A stretch of DNA of 64,000 nucleotides from NCBI RefSeq assembly GCF_041260155.1, contig NC_091928.1:43986637-44050636 (forward strand). Direction: 5' to 3'. Below are positions 4,555 to 64,000 of the stretch, one piece after another (the first letter of the stretch is position 1; each line of letters begins with the position of its first letter). Below the pieces are notes generated by a model that saw nothing but the letters and a program-made list of their open reading frames with translations, had not been told where the DNA came from and searched no databases. The position numbers were made by a program, and so were the translations under genes. This stretch comes from Ptychodera flava (Eukaryota; Hemichordata; Enteropneusta; Ptychoderidae).

Positions 4555-7500
4555 AGCATGCGTGATCGACTTGGCCATCCCTGATTCGCCAATCACTACA
4601 ACCAAAGTGACTTTGAGAAAAGTCTTTCTGGCGCCCGGCAAATAGGTTTCTTTCGTAAAGAGAGACAGGATGAGCTTCACCACTTTTCAGCATTAAAAAT
4701 TTATGCCAAAGTGGTGAACATTTCATTAATAATATTATTCATGTGATTGCTATTATTATATATCTTCCTGTACTCTCAATCAAAATATCTAATGTCTGCC
4801 CATCGTCAACGGTTCAACAGTACCGGATCTAAGACTTTACAAAGTCTAGGTGTGATTACCACAACCTCTTCACTTTGTAATGTACTGTATTATCATCAAC
4901 CTTGCAAGAATTGTCAGCAGCACATGCCATATGTCTGCTGATTAATTTCCGGTTGACCATTTGTCACTTAATTACACCACGATCTCTTTCTGCAATAAGC
5001 AATTGCTGTGTTCGCAAGATGTGTAGACTTAATGTGTCTTAACGGCAAGAATTTTACCTTCGTAAGTCTGTGGGTTAAGTATAAAACTTGTGATAAAGTG
5101 GCTAATGTCATCAGTCTCTGCATACCGACATAGCAGCTGAGTTTATGCAAATATAAATTATACATTTGTATATTAACCAAACTATGGTGCTGCAGGAGAA
5201 GTTAGAATAAAAGTTCAAAATAAATTATGACCATAAGGGATACAACATGGTATTATCAAATATCAAGAAAGCATTCTTTTGGCTTGATCTCCGTCACAAA
5301 CATGTAAACTTTCTAGATTCGAGCATTTGTTCCATAGTTTGGTAGCTGTAGATTTCAAGTTATATTGACTAACAGCTGGTAGGTCCACTCCAGAGATGTG
5401 GAAATGATTTGCATATCAGACAGACTTCAAGCAAGAGTGGTGCTGACTGTCCTTCACTTCCGCTAAGGACATTATAATCGTAATCTCATTTGTGGTCTAT
5501 ACAGCTAAAATTAAATTTAATCATTTTCAGTATTACCCCTAATATCCACTGACAAGTTGTCACATTTTATCTCTTATTTCTCACACAATTCATAAAATTT
5601 TACGGCAAACATATTTATTAAATTCCAGCCCAAGTAAGCACCGCAGTTCCTGGACGGAAGACTATATCGAACGATGTTTTAACTTATCTAGATAATATAT
5701 ATATACTCAAATACGTTTACATAATATATTAAACCTCGTATGTAATTTTGCATTGTCGTCATGGTTATATTTTCTTCTCGCTCTACAAAAATGCCAGCTT
5801 TGCAGTTATGTATTTCTTGTATAAACAGCCCTGAGAACATGTAAGTCTTCGTAAACTGTAATCAGAGCTTTCGAATTGCACATTTGGACTTAAACACTCA
5901 AAGGCACATCTAGTATTGTCTTGGTACATGACACAAACGAATTTATGGTAAATGTTTCTAAAAAGCCGGAATTCTGTTTGTTTTTTGACACTCGCCCTTT
6001 CTCGTCTTACACAGGAACATTTAAGACTCTAATCTGTAATAATGTTGAATGGAAATGTTTGTTTTTTCGTTCTGCTATGTACTATGGCGTAAAATTGCAA
6101 TAATTGTCTCAAGGTTACATTTAAATAAATATTTGTCTCTTAAGTTCACCTTTACCATTTATGTGACGGTAAAAATGTATATAATTTTAAAGCTTATAAA
6201 GCGAAGATTTAGGTTGCGATATTAACCTCAACAAAAGATAAAAGTACCTGTCAGGATGAAAAAACCTGACAAGTGTATTCAGTCACCTCGAGCATTTAGC
6301 TCTGTGTAGCAACTACAAGACTTGATTTTTCTACAAAATTATTAATACTAATATGAGTTTTCCCAGTGTGTAGGATATTTAAATTCCTTTTATATTCATT
6401 GATTGTTCACACACATGGATGAAATAATATCGTAGCGATGTCTGTCTGTGTGTGAGTCTACCTGTCTATTTGTCTGTCTGTTTACACCATAACTCAAGAA
6501 AACCTGAACGGATTCAAGTCAAATTTGATAGATAGGTACCACATGCTTATGGCAAGAACTACACATACTTAGATTTTTGTAGGTGTAGCTTGCATATTAA
6601 CTAAGTTACGAAACATAATTTTTGCACATAACGGTTTCCTATGGAGACAGTAATCACAGTGGCGATCGACGTATATCAAGAAATACCGAACAAAATTTCT
6701 TGAAACTTTTCACAGATGACAATATCAGAACATATGATACTGTGAGTGTCATGGAAATTATCTGCTCATTTGCCAATTTAATGAACTTTTGAAATTAGTG
6801 ATATAACTCCACAATTCCTAGGTATGATACTTGCTACAAAATTGATCTGATCACCGGCCCTGTGGGTGGAGGGACGGTTATCTGATGGATATCTAATTTT
6901 ACAGAGAAGCATTGGGCAGTGTCAAGTTAATGAATAGTTCATTTGCATATTTTATGAAGTTTTGTAATTAGTCATGTAACTCCGAAATAAATGCACCAAA
7001 TTTGATGAATCTGCTGCAGATACTGATCCGACAGATATCTGACTGTGTTGTGAAGCATTTAGTAGTGTGAAGTTAATTAAGGGTTCATTTGCATATTTAA
7101 TGAACTTTGTAATTAGTGATATAACTCCGAAATTACAGCATTAAATTGACAGCATTAAATTTCATGAAACGTGCTAGAGATGTGGTCTATTAGATCTCTA
7201 ATTGACCCAGATATCTGATTGTTCTGTGAAGCGTACTGCTATGATATGAAACTTTTGTAAACCACGTGAGCACATTCAGTTCACATCTGGGTTTGTAATG
7301 TGCTGTAAATCTCGCAATAAACGATACTTGCTACTAGGATGAATGCGTAAAAGTGTTTCTCTTGGTTCACTACGTTAGGACCGAAGATATTTCTTATTTG
7401 TTTTTGTGTCCTCACGCGTGTTCGTTTTTTTCTGTTTTTTGTTGTTTTTTTGGGGGGGAGGCTCCACAAAAAGCCATGTACTGAAAAGGCTTTAGCTTTA

Positions 7501-8635: not shown

Positions 8636-8707
8636 GCGAGGTCGGTCATTATATAATCACGGGTCACAAGGGTCAAAGAAGTAATTGATAGAAGGCGACG
8701 GGTTATA
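8636..8707 (+). promoter_or_regulatory. TATA-like sequence and DR3 nuclear-receptor-type site before the second P450
   Basis: An AT-rich TATA-like stretch (TATATAAT, about 8650-8657) is followed by GGGTCA at 8661-8666, the spacer CAA, and GGGTCA at 8670-8675. This is a perfect direct repeat with a 3-base spacer, 33 bases before the ATG. DR3 sites of this half-site type bind vitamin D receptor-RXR heterodimers in vertebrate CYP24A1 promoters. Its function here is inferred from sequence only, and the transcription start is not known. Confidence 0.45.
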
Positions 8708-11700
8708 ATGGCATTCATCCGAGCGTCAACGGTGCGCTACCTCAACCGACCGAAATGCGTCACCATCGGGAACATACGGCTCCGCTCCACCGCCAACCTC
8801 GTTAAGGAAGCCGACGGTATCGACAGCAAAGATGTGAAATCTTTGGACGAAATGCCAGGACCCAGTATGCTTCACCTCATGAAAGCTGCACTCACCGGAC
8901 AAATTCAGAAACCTTGGAAGCCGCTTCACCAGTTCAAGCGAGATTACGGACCGATATGGAAGCAAATGCTTGGGTCGAATGTTGTGGTCAACTTAACAGA
9001 GCCAAAAGATTTCGAATTCGTGTTGAGAAATGAGGGAAAATATCCGAGAAGGGTACAGGTCGATCCATGGTTAATTCACAGGCGGGAGCGAAACCTCGGT
9101 CTTGGTGTTCTACTTCAGTAAGTACTCAGTCAAAACGTGAATATCCTTTGCGGTAAAAATATTGCGTTTCGGTATGCCATTCCCTCAGGAAATACGGTGA
9201 GACGGTCGAAAACAGTTTTTGTGTGTGTGGATGTGACCAATAAAATAGAAATAAATGTAGCAGAATCATGAGTAACTTTCGAAAATGCGCAAAAGGTTAA
9301 AGGCACTGTTCGCGATCCCTGGGATTGCCTTTGTTCTAGTCTGTAAGAGGATTATGGAGGTGTGTAGCCTTCTGTTTTCCATTGAAATTGTAATCTGATA
9401 GGTAAATTTCTGATGAGACAATCTGGTGCCAACACATGCGCAAAACGTTAAGGATCAGAGGCTTATTGTAATAGGGTAGTCGGATCACTCACCCTGTTTT
9501 TGGAGGGTCTATGGATCACCGAATATCTGGAATATACACACGACTTGAACATTTCAAGACTGCATGGACAACCGTGCAGGAATTGTATGGATGATTGAGT
9601 AGGTAGATCATTCAATTGTGTCATTCTGAGATTTACGCATTACACAATGCTTTTCGGTATTCAGAAGAGAAAATGTGTTATAAAGAGTGACCATTTCAAA
9701 TTAACGATGTGCTAAGGGAGCCTTTTGTAATTACAGGGGTGGGCCTGGGGAATTCCGTGCGCACCTGTACTGTAAAATGTGAAACCCCCCCCTAACCTCT
9801 TCTCTAAAATTTGACCCCCCTCCCTTGTCTAACATTCTAAAACTTGACCCCCCTCTAATCACTCCAGTATTCTCGCCAGCACAGTCCCTCAACACGAGGG
9901 ACTGTGTCCCCAGGAATGACTGAACCAGTATCAGCTAATCTACATAACAATTGGTTTAACAGTGATTTGAGCTAGGGACAGAAATTATAGGGGATGGCGT
10001 TTTGGGCGGGAGGGTCGCAATTTATCATGCAAGCATTTTTGAAGGATTTAAAAATTTGTGAGAAGGTCATCATATTATGCTCAACTAAAAGGAGGCAATA
10101 TGTGGCTGATATAGTGCTTCACCCAAAAATATCAAATCGTAATACGTGGGAGTCTATCAGGCAATCTATTGGCAATTTTCCCCACACAACAAGCTATATC
10201 TGTACATTTATATATGTTTGATAATATATGTAAATGTACTTTGCTTGAAGTGGGAAGTAAAACGTGTATGCAGTGTGTGCAAGAAATTGTCACTGTATAT
10301 GGTAGTCTGTGAGGAAACTAGGAATAATCTTTTTCCAAAACAAAACTAGGTAAATCTGCGTAATTATGTACTCTTGAAAATTGATATCAATGTACTTGAT
10401 TAGACGTGTGGTTACAAGTGCATGCGTGTGCAAGAAATTGGATTTGGAATGTTAGCGAAATGTTGATTCACTATATATTGTAGTCTATGAGGAAACTAGG
10501 AATATTTTTTTAAATACAAAGCTAGGTGAATCTGTGTATTTATATAGGCCTACTCTTGGTTATTGATATTAATGTATATTGGACTCTGGTGATTCATGTG
10601 GATGCGTGTACAAGAAATTGGATTTTGGAATTTCACCTAAATGTTGATTCACTATACATGGCAGTCTATTAGGAAACTGTGAATATTTTTTTTCAATACA
10701 AAACTAGGTAAATCTGTGCATTAATGTACTCTTGATAATCGATATTAATGTACTTGATTAGACTAGGCTGGTCACAAATGATGCATGTGCAAGAAATTGG
10801 ATTTTGGAATTTCAACGAAATGTTGATTCACTATACATGGTAGTCTATGAGAAAGCTATAAACGATATTTTCCAGTATAAAACATAAAACTAACAATATG
10901 CATTTATGGACGTTTGCTAATTGATATACACTTTGCTACTGTTTTGTATCTTGTCTTTCACCAGTTATAACTCTTCAAGGTGTGTAAGGTTAAATACGAC
11001 GAATTCGGACGCGCAGACGTTTTAGAACGTTTCTGCGCCGATTTAACTCCGGCTTGCCGTAAATAGGTCATGTTGTAGCGCACATATTTACATCAGCTGT
11101 CATTGTTGAAATTGCGCTTTTACCCAGTGTTTTAACCTTATCTCTCATAGCAATAAATGTGACCGACGACCTTGTAATATTTTGACTTCTACGAAGCTGA
11201 TTTTTATTAACTATGAGCGAAAAATTTATATTACTCTCCCTTTTTACGTGGCGCAGGTTACACATTCACCTGGAGATATTTCAAAAAGTAGCGTCACGGT
11301 GGTGACACTACTTTATTAATAGGGCAAACTGATCAGTACGATGTCAAGATTTGATTAGCCAAATTTGGTCAAAATGACATCATACAGAGCGATAGGAAGA
11401 AAGTTCGAAAATTATGTAGTGATAAAATTTTGATATCGTCATTTTGTAGTCGATACTAATGTTAAAATTTCAATATCATAAAAGCTGTAATTTCAATAGA
11501 TATGCATCTGACGTCATGGTATTTATTAAAATTATCTAATTTGCTTAGTGTTTTATAATTGATTCCTTTAGTTAAAGTGAATTATCTCATTTTTCTTTAT
11601 TTCTAAAGACGTGACTTTAACGTCCGTTTCCATGGAAACCAGTTTGGTGACCCCATTGTTATTTCATTTTTGCACTCGCACAATTCTTATTCTATTTTTG

Positions 11701-13619
11701 CACTCACAAAAATGATAATACATTTTAATTTTGACGTAATTCGTCGTACCTGCCGTCATTTTGCTGTAATTCATTGTTACCACTGCATTAAAAAAGTCCC
11801 CTTTTTGTTGTTGATATATAGGGTGTTGGATCTTGTGAACAAAAGAAAAACTTGAACCCGGAAGTACAGTTTAAAATCCATGCGGAAGTGTAATTTTGTG
11901 AGAGACCCAGATGAGAATCAAACTTGTAGTTTTGCTTAGCCTTAGGAAGACTTTAACCGTCTTCGCTTGTAAAACGTTTTTCCTATGTATTTTTATCAGT
12001 GAAGAATCGGACTGGCAGCGCAACAGAGCTGCACTAAGCAAACGGATGATGAGACCACGTGAGGTTGCCACATACAGTGACACTGTCAATGACGTCATCA
12101 CGGACCTGGTCAACTCACTCGTAAGGGACAGAAATAACTATGGCAAAGACAACATTGTGCCTGATATAGAAAATGCTGTCTTCAAATGGTCACTTGATTG
12201 TAAGTACATTTCTGAAGTAAAAATTCATATCGCTTTCGCCAAGATCAATAATGCATGTGAACCAAGGGGAAAGAGCAACAAGCTACTTTCATGATCCCCG
12301 AATGACCTCCACCATCTTAATTGTCATGGTTGGATCAGTCTGATGGCGGACAGCTAACTTAATGTACAGATATCGTACCATGGATGGACAAACGTTCGGC
12401 AACAAAAGTTACATACGATAGGCTGTTACAAACTGCTTGTATTATTATCCAGCATCTTGCATAAGGTCGTGTAACAGAACATATTTACTTTTAAATGTTG
12501 AAAAAATGTCGAAAATAAAAGTTACGTTGGGGCGGAAACTCTCAGGCTTGTGCTTCTTCTGTAAAGTATTGTTTGTAAATGTACAAGTTTGTTCTCTATC
12601 CATATTTTACAGCGGCCTGTTCCGTTATTTTGAACAAGAAATTGAATCTCCTTGACGACAAACCACACCCAGAGGCTCAAGAGTTCATCCAGGCTGTACA
12701 TGATATGTTTGAATCCTTGTTGTGGTTGTTCGTAATCCCGGTTCATCTTCACAAAAGGTTCAACAGTAAACCTTGGAGGAAACAACTCAAATCATGGGAT
12801 ACCATCTATGCATTAGGTAATGTAGATTTGTCTCAAAATCAATCATAGTCTTGTCAAATCAACCGGATTTATCAAGATTAAAACCCTTTTCTACTTTAGG
12901 TTACGTAGTTCAAATTGTACCAATCTTTAATTTTAAAGTTTTGTTCCGAAAAGCAGAATCAGACATAATGTGAATATTCAATTGAATTTGTATCATTGAT
13001 GTCAGAATTCTTTTTACTTAAACAGATTGACGAATCTCCTCGGGTTTGACGTCACACACAATATACATTTATGGAAACTTTGAGGGCAGCATCCATCTGT
13101 AGCTGTAAATTATTCATTTATTGATAATCACCATATTATTACGCGAATCTTTTTTTGAATATTCAGATGGTGCATCTAGACTTCATGATTCTGTTGTATA
13201 AGCATCAGTTTGAAGCAGACAAAAATGAACAAATAAACAGGCAGAGTCTGCTATACATTTTTCTAAACTTCTTCAAGATTTTTTGAATTCTTAGTTTTTG
13301 AGCAAGTCTCAGAATATGCATGGATATCATATGAACACTTACTGTCTAATAAAATTTAATTATAACAGCTAAAACATTAATTGACGAGAAAAGTGAATGA
13401 CGTCACTAAAAGGCTGGCCTCTGGAGAAGACATCGATGTGGAAGGAACTGATTTCATTACGTACTTGTTCATCAAGGGAACGCTTGAGATCGATGAAATT
13501 TACGCCAATGCAACGGAGTTACTCGCTGCAGCGGTCGATACGGTATTCCATAATTCGCCATTTACTTTCATATTATACCACTTAAAAATATTAGTATGAT
13601 AATGTTCAATGTTCTTCTG

Positions 13620-18115: not shown

Positions 18116-20000
18116 GATGGATGGATGGATGGGTGGACGTATGTATGGCGTCCACATCAAAAATTCCATAAGCGTAAGACCTACCATCTTAGTATTAAGG
18201 GTACAGATTCACCCAAGGGTGGAGATACGAATTCTTTGAAATGAATATGTTACTGTCAAAAATGCGAATGACGTAAAAATGAAAAATCCTGCAAATTGCT
18301 AAAACTGTATCCACAGGCAAGATAGGATCGAAATTTGGCCTTCAGGTTGCCTCAGTTAATTTTCGTATTCAGCAATTAATTGCAACACACTGCACCAGAG
18401 AAGATGAAAGCTATGTCATTCTTTCTTTCATAAAATTCGTATTGATCGACCTTGATCGACCATGTTTCCACCAGAACGACTCAAAACGATATGCTACTCC
18501 TGGGCGTCGTAAACAAAGGTTTAAGAATAGTTTCATCCCCTACGCTCTTTACAATTATCAAAAAACTTTCCTTTTCATATCTATGTGCTTTTAGAACCAC
18601 TTAATGTCTTATTATGACTTTTAACAGACCAATTTTAATGTGCACTTTTGAAATTGTGAAAAAAAATTAAATGTAAGAATTCAAACTGTCTATGATGGAA
18701 TCTGGTTGCAAAAGTTAATAATTAATAAATAAATAAATAAATAAACTATGACAGTAATCAATCATGTTGAATTGTTTATCACCTTTCAACGTAATGAAAG
18801 AGGCCAGCACAGTTAGTGCCCCGTCGATGGCAACTCGTGTAGTGACGTAGCGTTACCCTGCCATACTGGCATATTGCCCTATTATTCTATATTTTTGTTG
18901 GTAAAATTAACAACTACTTCGATCTGCAGTAACACAAATTCCTTTGCCTATGGTGTCAAGTCGATAGGTAAGACATGATCTCAGGAGGGCGCCACCCCTT
19001 AAATTGTCAGTATAACGTGGAAGGTGAGAACAATCTAGAAATTTTTTGATCTCAATTTACATTATTGAACAATCATAGACTAACCGAAATTTCCATGAGA
19101 TGAATTTTACAGTTACGTAAGTTCAGAAAATGTTTAAAAATGTAGACTGCAAACTGATAAACGAAGACTATCATTGTAGATCGATAGGAGACTATCTGCG
19201 AGATATATAATGTACTCGTAATGTAGTCTATCTACGTGAGACCTTGACGGACTGATTTCTGTATAAAGCTCAGTCTGTTTGACTGTGGTCGCTTTTTTAG
19301 ATATGTAATCATTTGTAAGCATTGTGATTAAATTTTGATATACGTTAGTACCGACTGGGGGACTGGTCAGTTCTTCGGCCTGAGGGGAGGGGCGGTGGAT
19401 TCATGGCGAGAGGGGCACCGTGTTTTTTACTATAGTGATTGGGGAGGGGTTTACCATGGTTTTGAAATACTTCATGGGGGTCCCAAAGTGTTTTTGCACT
19501 AATATTTGACAATACATTGATGCAGTTACATATTTGATAATATTTTGTCATAGCATCTACAACATACATTATGTTTCGTCAACTTTGGTCAAGTCATTCA
19601 TGATATACATCCCTAATTAGGAAAGTTTGTTATATACGCAAATTAGTAATTAGCTAAAATAAAAATGCTAAATGACTTCAACAATGTTGTGGTATTTCCA
19701 ATGTACATAGCACGTAATGTCAACTTTGATTAAGCCAATTCAGATATATATCTCTAATAAGGAAAGTTAATAGATTCTTGGTATGACTTACCTGGATCAT
19801 AGACCCTCGAGAAAAACGAGGGTCTATGCCTGGATACATGATTCGAAATGCTCTATTTTCAACTGATGCAAGAAGGAAGGGTGGTTTGGGCTGCGATGAG
19901 GCCATTATGCCATAAGGGATATGCATATTGGACAAAATTATGATTGACATATATTTTGTTTATAAATGCTTTGTGCTCAATCCTGATCTTTTAAGGAGGT
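17502..20000. other. Intergenic stretch with simple repeats and a small hairpin
   Basis: No gene recognised. It holds (GT)n then ATGG repeats at 18087-18131, an (AAAT)n run at 18722-18745, and a clean hairpin at 19798-19828 with arms CATAGACCCTCG / CGAGGGTCTATG. Confidence 0.6.
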
Positions 20001-25705: not shown

Positions 25706-26820
25706 CCAGTGCTTGAAAGAGATTATTACAAGGGCGGTGTTAAGTGCCTTAACATCGACAAACAGATTCGTGCCATCAATGCAATTTGGGTGAAAAGGCT
25801 GGTTTCGGGTAAAGACAGCACTTGGGCTGCCATACCATGGCATTACTTCAAAATCGATGAGTCATGTGATCTACTTCAACAAAATCTGTGTTGGAATTCA
25901 TTGCCAAAACAAGTTTTATCATTACTTCCTGTTTTTTACGTCAATATTTTGAATGCTTGGTACACAGCAAGCGACAACACTAATTTAAACAGACATGTAA
26001 CACAAAAATGGTGTAAGAATATCACATTTTTACAAGTCGCCGATTGGCGATAATTCACAATACGGGCTTTGGACAGAAGGGCAATTTATTCCACTGGAAA
26101 AACTTACTTGTAAGATCATTTACTGTACCCTCTTACAAAATCAACGTTTAGATGCTGATAACGCTAATAAGCTTGATAAATGGTATACTTCACTTGGTGC
26201 AAACCATTTAAAAACCAAAGTCTACAATCAGGCAATCTGGGAAAATATTTACTCGTGCACAAAAGAAACAAAATTGAGAGAATTTCAGTGGAAATTGCTG
26301 CACCGGTTATTACCATGTAATAAATATTTGTTTTATTGGAAGAAAATTGATTCCATGAACTGTCACCTTTGTCAGGTACCAGAATCTTTAGAACACAAAT
26401 ACCTGGATTGTCAGATTGCTAAATATCTCTGGAGGAGAATTACAGGGACTATTTGTAATTATTTGAATAGAAATGTAACTTTATCCAATACTGACATTAT
26501 TTTTAATTGTAACACAAAAAAATTTGTTGGCAAAAAGTTTGATGGCGAAGTCATCAAAGTGTTGATTTTGCTTGGAAAATGGTCAATTCATAAATTTTGG
26601 CTCGGTGACAAGAGTGTACCCTTAAATGTACTGTTCCGACACGAGTGTGTTATGAGATGTAAAGTGGAGAAAGTTTCACGAAGAGATGAATTCGTAGAAG
26701 CTTTTGAAAAAATAATAGATTTTATTTAATTTATTTGTATTTCTTGCAAGTGTAGGAGTTGTTGTATAACATGACCGATGTGAAACTTCCTGACAATTTT
26801 AAATAAAAGATAAAAAAAAA
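25706..26820 (+). mobile_element. 5'-truncated non-LTR retrotransposon (LINE) with poly-A tail
   Basis: Holds the C-terminal part of a LINE ORF2. At 25709-26053 is a post-RT segment (GGVKCLNIDKQIRAINAIWV). After a frame break near 26040 the reading continues to the stop at 26729 through FQWKLLHRLLPCNKYLFYW and a zinc-binding CHLC..HKYLDC segment of the zf-RVT type. An 80-base 3' region then ends in an A-rich tail at 26811-26820, directly before the right flanking repeat. The RT core and ORF1 are missing, so the copy is dead on arrival. The clade (L1/Tx1-like) is not certain. Confidence 0.85.
26274..26729 (+). pseudogene. LINE ORF2 C-terminal fragment (zf-RVT region)
   Basis: Open for 151 codons in this frame. 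It has the LHRLLP and CHLC-x10-HKYLDC zinc-finger-like pattern found after the RT domain in many LINEs. The part before 26040 is in another frame. It is a remnant carried by the LINE, not a host gene. Confidence 0.8.
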
Positions 26821-45300: not shown

Positions 45301-48300
45301 AAGGCCGCTGCCCTAAGTATGGCATTTACCTTGCTTTTTTATCGATCGATATCTGTCGACAAAACAAGAGAATGACATAAATCTCTGAATACTGGTGGAC
45401 TTTTCTGCCGTAAACATACTTAAGATCGTAACAAACTGTCGACGACAATCTTCCAAAGGCAGGTCGCAGAACCAAGGCCAGAGCGCCGGACAATTTGACT
45501 TGTGTATACAATCTACTTATGACAGTTTCATAAGTAAGAACAGGTAGGAGAAAGAATGTTGCGGTTTGCAAATTTTTTGCAAACTGTAGTTAATGCACCA
45601 AAAGCGAACGATTTATATAATTCGGAAGAATTTTGTCGAAAATATTATGTACAGTAACAACGGCATCATCCCCTGCCTCCCCGTCTGTCTGTCCGTCCGT
45701 CTGTCGGTCTGTCTGGCTGGCTGTATATATGTGCATCTCTGTCTGCCAGTCTGATAGACCGACCGACTGACTAACTTTCTATATCTGTCTCTCTGTCTCT
45801 CCCCTACCCATCTACGACAATACTCTCCAATATTGTATTTAATTTGTCACTGTAGGAAGAGTGTAGGGCGTATGGAGGATGGATTTTTTTTCTCATTCGA
45901 CAGAACCAGACGTTGTGGTGATTATCAGAGAAATAATGAAAAAAAGGCAAATTTGTATGCGTCAGTCGGTTTGCAGCACCGCCTCGCATTAGGCGATTAT
46001 GTCTTTTTGCGAGATTCATTCATGCGCTGAGTTCTTATCGGCCTTACTTATCAGCATGAACACTGCGTGGGCCATCGGTCAGATCGTTAGCGGTCATATT
46101 CCAATTAGATAATAACTTGCGGATAAATACTGTTTATCTCCACCTTGTTGTTGAAACAAGTCACTGGTATTTGGTCACGGTGGTTCTAAAAATGAATCGG
46201 ACGTGACGTCTGCGCGTGAGACTTTTGAAGTCAACAACGCTAGCCATCTGTCGTCGACATTCCAAGCTATACTTTTGAACAGATTCATAGATACACGTTG
46301 CGTAGGCAACACGGCCTACCACCTACGTGAGATGACGTGCAGGCGCAGAACGTGGGTGTACGGACTGTGTACAGCTAGACAAATTGTTTCATAGTAAATA
46401 CGTCATATCGTAGACGTCATACGTAAATTTGTGACGTCATGCAAATTGTTCCTACAACGAGATACTAGTACACAGTGGGTGTCGGTGTTTCCAGTATACG
46501 AAAAAATAGCAGTTCAGAATCGCCTTCTTTCAACATCGCTTCCGGTGATAATAATGAAAAGCCGTCCTGCCGGATTTTTGCGGAAACCTTTCTGAATGGA
46601 ATGCCCCGTTATTTCAGTGCTGTTCAAAATTCTGATAGCAACAGAGCTGTTTACGACATTTTCGACAACCTGAAACGATTTCCAGGGGGATTTCTATTTT
46701 ACCGCCTAAAAGTAATCTTTTGAAAATTGCCAAAGGACCACTGAAATTTGCTTTTGTTTGAATCATAGCTTCACAGAAGAATGAAAGTATTTAAAGAGCG
46801 AACGTTTGCGGCCTATATAGGATATTCAAATATTCAGTAATTGTGTTTTTACCAGGATTTCACACTAGCTAGGCATTTTGAGTTTTAACCTGTCATATCA
46901 GTTTGCTTTCAGAATAACATGCATTTGACACTAAGTCTTCAAATGAGTGCAACAAGAGCCTTTATTAAAAACATGATTTCAATTGTTCGAACAGTTTATG
47001 ATATCGCAATGTGCCATTAGCATCCATCACAATATTTTGCCTCGTTATTCTGTTAAACGCAGATATGTTCAGATTTAAAGTGACTGTGGTAACATACCTA
47101 TGTAGACTTTTGTTTAAAAAGTGGGCCTCACCAAATCGATATTCGAAGATTAAATGTCATCACCAAGTATTAATCTGCCAAATTTACAGGCGATCATGAC
47201 AAAAGGATAAACGTTCATCATTTAAAGACCTCACTGTGTAAACAGGAATAGTTTGTTGTTCCGCAGAGCTCTACTTAGTTCGTAGAGCACGTCTCTGAAC
47301 TACTGAAGACAGAATGGGAGACAAGAACTATAGTACTGCATCCTGACAGACAATTCTTGACGATGAAGGTTTTGAAGCTTCGCTGACATTTTTTGTGGAA
47401 CCAAATTTTAACCAACAGATGTTACGACAGAAAAAGGCGGTAAAGTTAGCGCTTTTCTTTAAAATAAATTCATTGAAACAACTAAATTTAGGATGTAAAT
47501 TAAATAAAAATTACAATGAAGAGCAAAAATCATGTATCTCAGCTAGGACTGCACAAAACTCCTAATCTCCAGAGAGTTGAGTCAGACAGACACTTATGGG
47601 AGAGGAAGTCCTTCTTTGGCTGCAGACTTGATGTAGTCCGAACCGCGGCGTGCAGAGTTTACAGAGCAAATCTAGCGTGAGTGTGAAGGTTTGGAAAGTT
47701 TCCAAGGTCCTGAAATATACACTGACGTGATCCCTAATAGCCAAACTGAAAATCTATACCGTGCCGTATTTATATTTAAAACGATTCTATCGATATCAAG
47801 AAGATATCACAACAATCTAGAATTTCTAATGATATGTTAATTACTGTTCTAAAAATATCTTCACTTGTAGTAAACATGTTTTTCTAGAAAGTTATAAAAA
47901 TGACTAACTAAACTCAAGGCCATGGAGGAGAATGGCCTACATAACACAACAATCAAGGATAAAACTTCAAAATTGATGGTTTTCATAGTGTATTAGAGAA
48001 GTAAATTACCCTAAAATTCAAATTCAAAGTGGTCGCCATTTGCTGTATTCACTGTTTGGGTAGCATTGAATTTTCCATTTCATATAATAAACAAGGCGAT
48101 GAAACTTAATTTTCCCCACAATATTCAAAATGATTCTGTTTGCATTCTAGGACAGAGAAGATTGTGAGATTATGAGATTCAGTCTCTCTATTGCATTTCG
48201 CGTCGGAGAAGTAGCTCTTGCTACACCGTTATATTAGTTTGGACCATTTTCCAATGTTTTCATAATTAACTGATAGACATGGTCAAGTATTTCTTATTTT

Positions 48301-59590: not shown

Positions 59591-60161
59591 TGTTATGTAG
59601 GTCATTTCCCCCCACACTCATCATGACCTGAGTTCAATTAGTCTAGAACATTCTCAAGGTCACTGCCCTTGATGACCTAACAACCTTGAATTCAATTAGT
59701 CATGTTTGGAATGTTCTGGAAAGTTGATTAGTTGTGTAAGGGAGATAATTTTAGAACAGTAATTAGCATGTCAATAAAAGTTCTAGATTGTTCTTATATG
59801 CCTTTATAAAAGGGACGTGCACAGCTTCCAGTCAGACTTTTGGGATCGTGTCTCTTGTGTGTTACTAAACTCCAGCAGTAGTCATTCTCAAGACTTTTCA
59901 AGACCTTCACTGTCAACGCTGGATTTATACTGTGGACTTTGTGCAGCTTCAAGCCTGCAAGCCAAAGGACTGTTCATTCATCCGACTGACTGTTACAACT
60001 CTGAGACTGGAGCTTTGCCGTCCCAGCTGAGATAAGTAGTCTGTACACTTTTAAAGCTTGTACTCTATCCCGACTTAGCAATTAGTTTTATTTTTGTAAT
60101 AAATTTTGTTTAAACGTTAACTGCTGAGTTCACCCTTTTGTTCGTTTCTCTGCACGTAACA
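59591..60161 (+). repeat. 5' LTR of the Gmr1-like element
   Basis: Starts TGTTATG and ends CGTAACA, an inverted TGTTA/TAACA pair, about 571 bases. It has a TATA box (TATAAAAG) at about 59805-59812 and a polyadenylation signal AATAAA at about 60098-60103. The 3' partner is outside the window, so the borders rest on the terminal inverted pair and the primer site. Confidence 0.85.
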
Positions 60162-60164
60162 AAT

Positions 60165-60181
60165 TGGGGGCTCGTCCGGGA
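60165..60181 (+). other. Primer binding site, proline tRNA type
   Basis: TGGGGGCTCGTCCGGGA lies three bases after the LTR and is complementary to the 3' end of tRNA-Pro, the same primer type used by murine leukaemia virus-like elements. The match stops after 17 bases. Confidence 0.85.
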
Positions 60182-60262
60182 GACGAATATTTTGAGCCGT
60201 TTGACAACATTTTGCCTACCTTTTCAAAACTACTTTAACTGTGAACTCAGCGAAATTCAATC

Positions 60263-61505
60263 ATGGCGGAATTTAAGCCAGACGAATTTATGGATGACCT
60301 TGATCAGGACACATTTAATTCCCTCAGAAAAGACAACCTCATAACACTGGCCAATTTCCTTAAAGTAGATGTCAAAAGATCTATGCGCAAGCGAGAAATA
60401 CAGTTCAAGATTGCAAAACATTTAGTTAATTCTGGCCATTTTGAGGAGTCTGCCTTAAAAGATTATGAGCCTGAGTCTTCCTTCGAACTCAAAAAATTAG
60501 AATTAGAAATACAGGCAGATTTGGAGCTTAAGAAATTGGAATTAGAAAAGGAGAAATTACAAATGGAAGAAAGACAGAGAGAAAAGGAAAGAGAATTAGA
60601 AGAACATCGACTACAGTTAGAAATGAGACGTTTAGAGCTTGGACAGTCAGGAAAATTCTTCCCTTCAGACAAGTTGACATCACTAAGCATTTCAGGTTAG
60701 TTCCCCCTTTCCAAGAAAAGGATGTTGATAAATATTTCCTTCATTTTGAGAAAATTGCTCAGAGTCTGAATTGGCCTAAGGAGTCCTGGTCTATGCTTTT
60801 GCAGAGTGCTTTGGTGGGTAAAGCCAGAGAAATTTACATTCAGTTGTCAGTAGAGCAGGCTTCAGATTATGATTCTGTGAAGGAATTAATTCTCAAGGGC
60901 TATGAGTTGGTGCCTGAAGCTTACCGTCAGAAATTTAGGGATTGTGAGAAGGTGAAGGATCAAACTTATGTTGAATTTGCTCGAACAAAAGAACAACTGT
61001 TTGATCGTTGGTGTTCTTCGAAAAGGTCAGTCAGAATTATGACAAATTACGACAGCTTGTTTTGATTGAGGAATTTAAAAGGTGCATCCGGAGTGACATC
61101 AAGACATTTATCAATGAACAAAAGGCAGATACATTGGAGGTTGCTGCACGTTTGGCCGATGATTATTCATTGACCCACAAATCTTCATTTCTCAGCAAAC
61201 CATCCCAGTCCTTTTCATACAGAAACAATGCAGGTAAATTTAACTCCTCCTTTTCATCCAAGAATTTCTCAAAGGAAAGTAGGAAATCAAATGACAACAG
61301 TTCACAAAGTTCAAGTAACACTCCCACATCATCAGATCCCAAGTCTCAATCTCCTTCTGACAAACAGTTCGGTACACTTTCTTGTAATTATTGTAAGAAA
61401 GACGGCCATTTAATGTCAGATTGTTTCAATTGAAAAGAAAACGTGAAGGTCAAAGTGGTCAAAGTGGATCTAAGCCACCGGCTTTATTTCTTCATCAACT
61501 CAATT
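60263..61505 (+). CDS. Gag of the Gmr1-like element (frame broken)
   Basis: The ATG at 60263 follows the leader. The N-terminal part is acidic, then comes a long charged coiled coil rich in Glu, Lys and Leu (about residues 65-125). After a break near 60675 follows the capsid-like segment (KYFLHFEKIAQSLNW, then VKELILKGYELVPEAYRQKF and FARTKEQLFDRW), resembling the SCAN-like fold of related Gag proteins. After a break near 61020 come LEVAARLADDYSLTH and a Ser/Asn-rich linker. The CCHC zinc knuckle CNYCKKDGHLMSDC is at about 61384-61425. A stop at 61432 follows another one-base shift. The role is RNA binding and particle assembly. Confidence 0.85.
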
Positions 61506-61518
61506 AGAGTCTAATAAT

Positions 61519-61960
61519 GTGTGCAACACATTTTCTGAGGTTAAATCCCTCTTATCCCCAATTAATGAGGTCAAGGTCAATTCTTCTCAAGATAGCATTA
61601 TGGGTATTTTCGAACCATTTATTCACGATGGTTTTATATCACTTTCTAGTGATTTTTCTTCCGCTACCCCTGTCAAAATTTTAAGAGATACCGGGGCTTC
61701 CCAGTCTCTTTTGTTGGCAGATACCCTGCCGTTTCTGAAAAGTCATTTTCAGGTTCTAAAGTTCTTATTAAGGGGGTAGATTGCAATGACTACATTCCTG
61801 TTCCTCTCCATAATGTCTATTTGTCTTCGGACTTTGTTTCTGGACCTGTGGCTTTAGGTATTAGGCCTTTTTTGCCTTTTGAAGGGATTCACCTTCTTCT
61901 TGGAAACGACCTTGCTGGGGACAAGGTCATTACTAATCCACTTGTGACTGATAATCCTAG
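61519..61960 (+). CDS. Aspartic protease of the Gmr1-like element (frame broken)
   Basis: Catalytic DTGA at 61687-61698 in ILRDTGASQSLL, followed after a shift near 61735 by a segment ending in HLLLGNDLAG, the usual C-terminal hydrophobic strand plus loop of retropepsins. It processes the polyprotein. No RT or RNase H follows it: about 150 residues of linker lead straight to the integrase. Confidence 0.85.
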
Positions 61961-62189
61961 TTTAGATCAGGATCCAGAGCCAATTGAACAAGAGATACCG
62001 ATTTATTTCCTTCATGTGCATTACTCGAGCCATGTCAAAGAAAACTTCCGAGAATCAAATACTCTCAAAAATAATGTCACAGATGTTGACTTAAATGACA
62101 CCTTTCTCAGTCAGGTGTTTGACACGGATCATTCCGTTATCCCTCGTGGATTTGAAACTTCCAGTAAAACTTCTGCTGACCAAAGTCAG

Positions 62190-63470
62190 ACATTTTCTAG
62201 ATCAAATCTCATTGCAGAACAACACAAAGACCCAGATATTTTGTCTTTGTTTGACAGGGTAGATGATGAAGGTAAAACTTCAGATAGCTCTGTTTCCTAT
62301 TATACAAAATCTGGTATTCTCATGCGTAAATGGAGACCTCCAGATGTTTTGGTTGATGACGATTGGGCTATAAAACATCAAATTGTGGTTCCAAAGCCCT
62401 ACCGTGCTGAAATATTGCGCCTGGCCCATGAAACGCCCTGGGCTGGTCACTTAGGAGTCAGGAAAACTTATCATAAAATTCTCAGTCACTTTTATTGGCC
62501 TAATCTCAGGCAGGATGTAGCACATTTCTGTAAAACTTGTCACACATGTCAAATGGTAGGAAAGCCGAATCAGACCATTCCAAAGGCCCCTTTACAGCCA
62601 ATTCCTGCATTTCAAGAACTATTTAGTAGGATTCTAATAGACTGTGTTGGGCCCCTACCAAAAACAAGATCAGGAAATGAGTACATGTTGACAATTATGT
62701 GTACATCAACTCGGTTCCCCAGAAGCCATACCATTGAGAAACATAAAGACAAAGACTATAGTGAGAGCTTTAGTCAAATTTTTCACTTTATTTAGCCTCC
62801 CTAAATGTGTCCAGTCTGATCAAGGCTCCAACTTTATGTCTGGTATTTTTCAACAAGTAATGCAGCTAGGCATTAAACAGTATAGGTCATCCGCCTATCA
62901 TCCAGAAAGTCAGGGTGCTCTTGAGCGATTTCATCAAACTTTGAAAAACATGATTAGGACCTACTGTTTTGACACAGAGAAGCAGTGGGATGAAGGAATT
63001 CATTTTCTGCTCTTTGCTGTTAAAGAGTCAATTCAAGAGTCTCTTGGTTTTAGCCATTTGAGCTTGTATTTGGACATACAGTCCGTGGCCCACTTAAGCT
63101 CGTTAAAGAGAAATTCCTATCAGACGATGATGATTGTCTGAATATTTTGCAATATGTGTCAGATTTTCGTACAAAACTCTCTAAAGCATGTGAATTAGCC
63201 AGAGAAAATCTTGAGTCATCTCAGCAGTCAATGAAAACCAAATATGATAAAAGCACCTCAAAACGGAAGTTTGAACCAGGTCAAAAAGTTCTTGTTCTAC
63301 TTCCAATTCCTGGCAAACCACTCCATGCTCGTTACTTTGGGCCATACCTAATTGATAAGAAATTGAGTGATTTAAATTACATCATAATAACACCTGACAG
63401 GCGAAAACAAAAACAGCTATGTCACATAAATATGCTTAAGCCATATTTGGATAGGGATAATCCTACTATA
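62190..63470 (+). CDS. Integrase of the Gmr1-like element (frame broken)
   Basis: The zinc-binding HHCC domain has His at about 62427 and 62448, and the CKTC pair near 62530. The catalytic core has Asp in LIDCVGPLP (about 62640), Asp in QSDQGSNF (62818) and Glu in ALERFHQ (62923), with a DDE spacing normal for Ty3/gypsy integrases. The C-terminal GPY/F module is at ARYFGPYLIDK (about 63330-63365). Frame shifts lie near 62715 (extra base in a C run) and 63050 (missing base). It catalyses insertion of the cDNA. It precedes rather than follows the RT. Confidence 0.9.
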
Positions 63471-63479
63471 ACTCAGCCT

Positions 63480-64000
63480 GTCAGTGCAGTCAGTTCAAGC
63501 CATTATGAAGATAGTGATACTGAAACTGACTTGAGTGAAAATACTCTAAACTCAAAGCTGGGCTCGGTCAAGCTTCAGAACTCAGAAATCCTGGAGAAGC
63601 TGGAGTCTACAAAGTTGGCACACCTCCAGCCAGAACAACAACAACAGGTGAAAGAACTGCTCCACGAATATAAACACCTGTTTCAAGATGTTCCAACGAG
63701 GACAACGTCATCTATCACGACGTTGATGTTGGGGACAGTAAGCCTGTAAAACAACATCCATACAGACTGAATCCAACAAAAGCGAAATATCTCCAGGAAG
63801 AAGTCAAATACCTGCTGGACAATGACTTTATTGAACCCAGTAAAAGTAACTGGAGTTCGCCGTGCATACTTGTTCCCAAATCAGATCACAGTTATCGTAT
63901 GTGCACGGACTTTAGGAAGGTCAACACTTTAACAAAGACAGACACTTTCCCAATCCCGAGGATTGATGACTGCATCGACCGAGTGGGAAAAGCCAAGTAT
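63480..64000 (+). CDS. Reverse transcriptase, N-terminal part, runs off the window
   Basis: After an acidic Ser/Glu-rich linker and a shift near 63705, the open frame reads HPYRLNPTKAKYLQEEVKYL, then WSSPCILVPKSD, MCTDFRKVN and FPIPRIDDCID. These are the standard fingers-region motifs of Ty3/gypsy-type RT (block 1 and the SSPxxLVxK, DxRxVN, PIPRIDD blocks). The catalytic YxDD lies beyond the window. Confidence 0.92.

Follow-up and report, generated by a model that had tools for sequence, protein, structure and literature searches.

Gmr1 elements are described as Gypsy elements in which the integrase is encoded upstream of the reverse transcriptase (RT) (PMC6238403, PMC8220671, PMC3587641, PMC2582038). 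The hosts named for Gmr1-like elements in the literature consulted are cod, Ciona, tetraodontiform fish, frogs, decapod crustaceans, and Lamellibrachia. Because Gmr1-like elements are thus known from crustaceans (PMC3587641) and from an annelid (Lamellibrachia; PMC8220671), they are not confined to deuterostomes: The initial annotation of the locus described here was right to name the Gmr1-like group as carriers of a reversed order, and drew its host range too narrowly in restricting it to deuterostomes. In the analysis of a polychaete survey, the Lamellibrachia Gmr1 clade was not recovered, and Gmr1 is counted there among five multi-phylum clades (PMC8556966); the printed table of mollusc Gypsy clades in PMC6238403 has no Gmr1 row. 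The integrase-first order is unusual and has already been described in several animal groups, and the element reported here is largely ordinary.

An Integrase-First Element at the End of the Window

The window (the whole stretch of 64,000 nucleotides of Ptychodera flava DNA that was analyzed) ends in a 4410-bp stretch that is, in our judgment with high probability, the 5' part of a Gmr1-like, decayed LTR retrotransposon of the Ty3/gypsy type. The features of the element, and of a related LTR elsewhere in the window, are as follows:

59591-60161, + strand: 5' LTR, 571 bp, with TGTTA...TAACA termini
60165-60180, + strand: primer binding site
60263-60697, + strand: N-terminal part of Gag
60613-61181, + strand: Gag capsid region, in two frames, with a weak Ty3_capsid match and then SCAN pieces
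61383-61424, + strand: CCHC zinc knuckle of the nucleocapsid (Pfam E=0.0098, below cut-off)
61687-61955, + strand: aspartic protease, with motifs DTGA (61687-61698) and, in another frame, LLLGND (61893)
62388-62561, + strand: integrase H2C2 zinc-binding domain (Integrase_H2C2, PF17921, E=3.1e-22)
62640-62925, + strand: integrase catalytic core (D 62640, D 62818, E 62923), with one frame break inside
63330-63443, + strand: integrase C-terminal domain of GPY/F type (Integrase_p58_C, PF22938, E=7.1e-11; RYFGPY at 63330)
63590-63746, + strand: linker between integrase and RT, read in the same frame as the integrase C-terminus
63710-64000, + strand: N-terminal part of a Ty3-type RT, about 96 residues, the window ending before the catalytic motif
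47420-47946, - strand: solo LTR, 527 bp, belonging to the family of the element's LTR and diverged from it

The order along the forward strand is hence LTR, primer site, Gag, protease motif, integrase, and RT. This bears out the succession of protease, integrase, and Ty3/gypsy-type RT that was originally read from the letters, by motif, Pfam, and Ty3 matches, respectively, and the opening 4.4 kb with LTR, primer site, and Gag is likewise present as first described. The DTGA lies at the position given for it, and the HHCC, DDE, and GPY/F parts that had been recognized in the integrase correspond to the three integrase domains listed above. The linker of about 150 residues between protease and integrase was estimated about right, as 165 codons separate LLLGND from the start of the H2C2 match. 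The two protease pieces match no Pfam protease family and neither of the two control elements introduced below, and the protease is therefore called from its motifs.

The catalytic core of the integrase matches the Pfam family rve at E=9.4e-6, below the curated cut-off. Searched against the PDB, the H2C2 piece finds Ty3 (E=2.5e-13) and then PFV (E=2.1e-8), and the core piece finds PFV (E=6.5e-9) and Ty3 (E=1.1e-6); among phage records the integrase piece had no match at E 1e-5. The linker, with LQPEQQ at 63624 and LFQDVP at 63678, looks by eye like an N-terminal extension of the RT, and no homologue of it was found in a PDB search with the piece from the integrase C-terminus to the linker or in the two control elements. 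For the RT piece (109 aa), Pfam named no family, whereas the PDB search gave Ty3 RT (4ol8, E=7.8e-21; 7q5b, E=6.7e-20). This piece had no match among phage records at 1e-3 and two matches among plasmid records, both of which are gypsy-type elements.

We took these two elements as controls and searched them with nine pieces of the window. The first, L001, is NZ_CP065945.1, deposited as a plasmid of Bacillus licheniformis; its Ty3/gypsy polyprotein frame is intact and includes a chromodomain, and the record therefore looks like eukaryotic DNA. The second, L002, is NZ_CP087956.1, deposited as a Wolbachia plasmid and probably DNA of the insect host; its Ty3/gypsy element has the ordinary order, with Gag, protease, RT, RNase H, and integrase. 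The RT lies upstream of the integrase in both (7001-7276 and 9410-9757 in L001, 1638-1874 and 3103-4181 in L002), and the Pfam layout concurs, in agreement with the earlier statement that ordinary Ty3/gypsy elements have RT before integrase. The order of integrase before RT in the element of the window is real.

It could be asked whether this order belongs to a single element, and the initial annotation had itself proposed that the reading would fail if the RT came from another element inserted next to the integrase. In such a case two ordinary Ty3/gypsy elements would abut, one contributing its integrase end and the other its RT, and the order would be a false one. The copy is decayed and its 3' part lies outside of the window, so that a fragment junction is possible in principle, and an intervening LTR of an unrelated element would go unrecognized. 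However, Gag and the protease motif lie upstream of the integrase, and Pfam finds no RT match between them and the integrase. The frame of the integrase C-terminus (63054-63749) runs to 63746, beyond the start of the RT frame (63674-64000, with RT recognizable from 63713), and blastn, alignment, and profile searches, which address LTRs of this family, found none between integrase and RT. The insertion of a neighbor thus finds no support, and we consider two abutting elements very improbable.

The LTRs of the Element

The outer ends of the 5' LTR read TGTTATG...CGTAACA, and within it there are a TATAAA at 59805 and an AATAAA at 60098. The primer binding site starts three bases past the LTR end and is complementary, in 16 of 16 bases, to the 3' end of an animal tRNA-Pro.

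A blastn search of the window with the 5' LTR gave a 119-base match (75%, E=1e-14) falling at 47420-47946 (- strand). The global alignment of the two LTRs has 358 identities, 101 mismatches, and 180 gap positions, and scores 425 compared with 272.9 +/- 10.6 and a maximum of 306.5 for 200 shuffles. The optimal alignment pairs the 3' ends only and leaves the 5' end of the element unpaired. The second LTR has the ends TGTTATGTAGGCCATT and CGTAACA, which resemble those of the element, the 5' likeness (TGTTATGTAGGTCATT compared with TGTTATGTAGGCCATT) having been found by reading, outside of the optimal alignment. Reading about 200 bases after this LTR revealed neither a primer site nor Gag, and searches with the internal DNA and protein pieces of the element matched nothing in the window besides the element itself; we therefore take 47420-47946 to be a solo LTR. 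Its presence supports the LTR call at 59591-60161. A profile built from the two LTRs, which matches both of its sources by construction, detected no third LTR of the family within the window, with E allowed up to 1, and a 24-base blastn match of the LTR at 19027-19049 (E=0.009) was taken as chance. An Rfam scan and a tRNA scan of the whole window were both empty.

Elsewhere in the window, an open frame at 26001-26729 (+ strand) matches Pfam zf-RVT (E=2.1e-7) and is probably a remnant of a non-LTR retrotransposon, and a minisatellite with a period of 179 and 3.2 copies occupies 10290-10858.

Gag and Probable Kinship with Gmr1

The N-terminal part of Gag, with its first ATG at 60263, has no Pfam match above the curated score. 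In the capsid region, the weak Ty3_capsid match (E=0.0082) is followed by two SCAN matches that together lie in adjoining frames, both below the gathering score: Positions 1-38 of the 90 in the model are found at 60913-61026 (E=5.4e-4) and positions 41-88 at 61038-61181 (E=2.2e-4). Further weak Pfam matches of the capsid piece are to DUF1759 and Retrotrans_gag, and the control Gag pieces match the same families (both in L002, Retrotrans_gag in L001). SCAN was found in neither control Gag piece at E up to 0.1 (0/2), the L002 piece, of 143 aa only, being a limited control in this respect. The capsid piece has no retroelement match in the PDB, and the zinc-knuckle piece has only weak matches there to HIV nucleocapsid (E about 0.5); a TGA stands just past the knuckle at 61431-61433. 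Two reviews describe SCAN as a derivative of the Gag of Gmr1-like elements or as showing striking homology to it (PMC3424704, PMC4592553), and the SCAN-like C-terminal half of the capsid could be a second Gmr1 trait, weak in score.

The element could instead represent an integrase-first Ty3/gypsy lineage outside of Gmr1 in which the order evolved independently. The spacing from the second D to the E of the integrase, 34 residues here compared with 35 in both controls, would fit such a lineage, although it may be a lineage trait or a 3-base deletion in this copy, and the deletion explains it equally well. The SCAN-like capsid half, in contrast, agrees with the Gag of Gmr1-like elements, and the published accounts consulted either assign their integrase-first gypsy elements to the Gmr1 clade or compare them to it (PMC8220671, PMC6238403, PMC3587641, PMC2582038); we thus hold an independent origin to be very unlikely as well. 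A Ty1/copia element, for which integrase upstream of RT is the normal arrangement (PMC6238403), can practically be dismissed, as the best RT matches are to Ty3 and not of copia type, no copia name occurs among the 22 matches listed, and the integrase C-terminal Pfam family is also present in the gypsy element L002.

The Gmr1-like reading brings together an integrase upstream of the RT, found by Pfam and Ty3 matches and set against controls of ordinary order, and a Ty3/gypsy-type RT, recognized over about 96 residues only. No relative was confirmed in any of four scans, of which three covered viral contigs (queried with the integrase piece, the RT piece, and an RT alignment) and one covered genome contigs (queried with the same alignment); these scans used a few short peptide patterns, which mostly reach close relatives. 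Taken together, it is unlikely that the element is either an integrase-first Ty3/gypsy element outside of Gmr1 or a Gmr1 lineage in a phylum without a prior report; if it were, the order would have arisen more than once or be more widespread than thought.

State of the Copy

The coding region at 60245-64000 is divided into eight stop-to-stop pieces in three frames, and the copy is therefore nonfunctional as it stands and cannot make its proteins. Seven junctions separate these pieces across about 3.7 kb; the one that divides the protease from the zinc knuckle might be a natural gag/pol boundary. A weak hint that the frame breaks reflect decay and not an assembly error comes from a cytochrome P450 exon in the same window, which is open over 154 codons. 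Given consensus lengths of 6058-6465 bp for fish Gmr1-4, the 4410 bp probably represent about two thirds of the element, and the catalytic part of the RT, the RNase H, and the 3' LTR would follow past the window end.

The P450 exon itself lies at 8657-9121 (+ strand, E=1.3e-8), its nearest solved structures being mitochondrial P450s (vitamin D 24-hydroxylase, CYP11A1), and a second P450 stretch is perhaps present at 11902-12294 (+ strand), where the match is weak (E=0.083).

Putative Mechanism and Origin of the Order

As is established for LTR retrotransposons in general, the LTR would drive transcription of an intact copy, and tRNA-Pro would prime its reverse transcription. Translation would yield a Gag-Pol polyprotein from which the protease would release integrase and RT-RNase H as separate enzymes, and the DDE integrase would carry out integration. 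The swapped order would alter the layout of the polyprotein and not the enzymes.

Judged by sequence resemblance, the order may more likely have arisen when a gypsy integrase moved inside pol than through acquisition of a copia one, because an ordinary gypsy element carries a similar integrase (H2C2 piece compared with L002, 36.6% identity, E=2.5e-24). It has been proposed instead that a precursor of copia and rGmr1 elements acquired its integrase separately (PMC3601003).

Comparison with Known Elements

With Ty1/copia elements the element shares an integrase upstream of the RT and differs in having an RT of the Ty3 type. The ordinary Ty3/gypsy element L002 has a homologous integrase, as seen in the zinc-domain piece, and an RT with 40.5% identity, whereas its RT precedes its integrase and its Gag piece is without a SCAN match. 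In the tetraodontiform Gmr1-4 elements, gag and pol are tabled as one open frame, whereas the decayed copy described here has its eight pieces in three frames. Compared with Gmr1-like elements in general, the part of this copy that the window contains is broken and incomplete, and the copy is likened to them by domain order and, tentatively, by capsid. It shares with them the integrase before the RT and the Ty3-type enzymes, and perhaps the SCAN-like capsid half, and we regard it as one more, decayed, instance of an integrase-first Ty3/gypsy pol, here with what may be such a capsid half.
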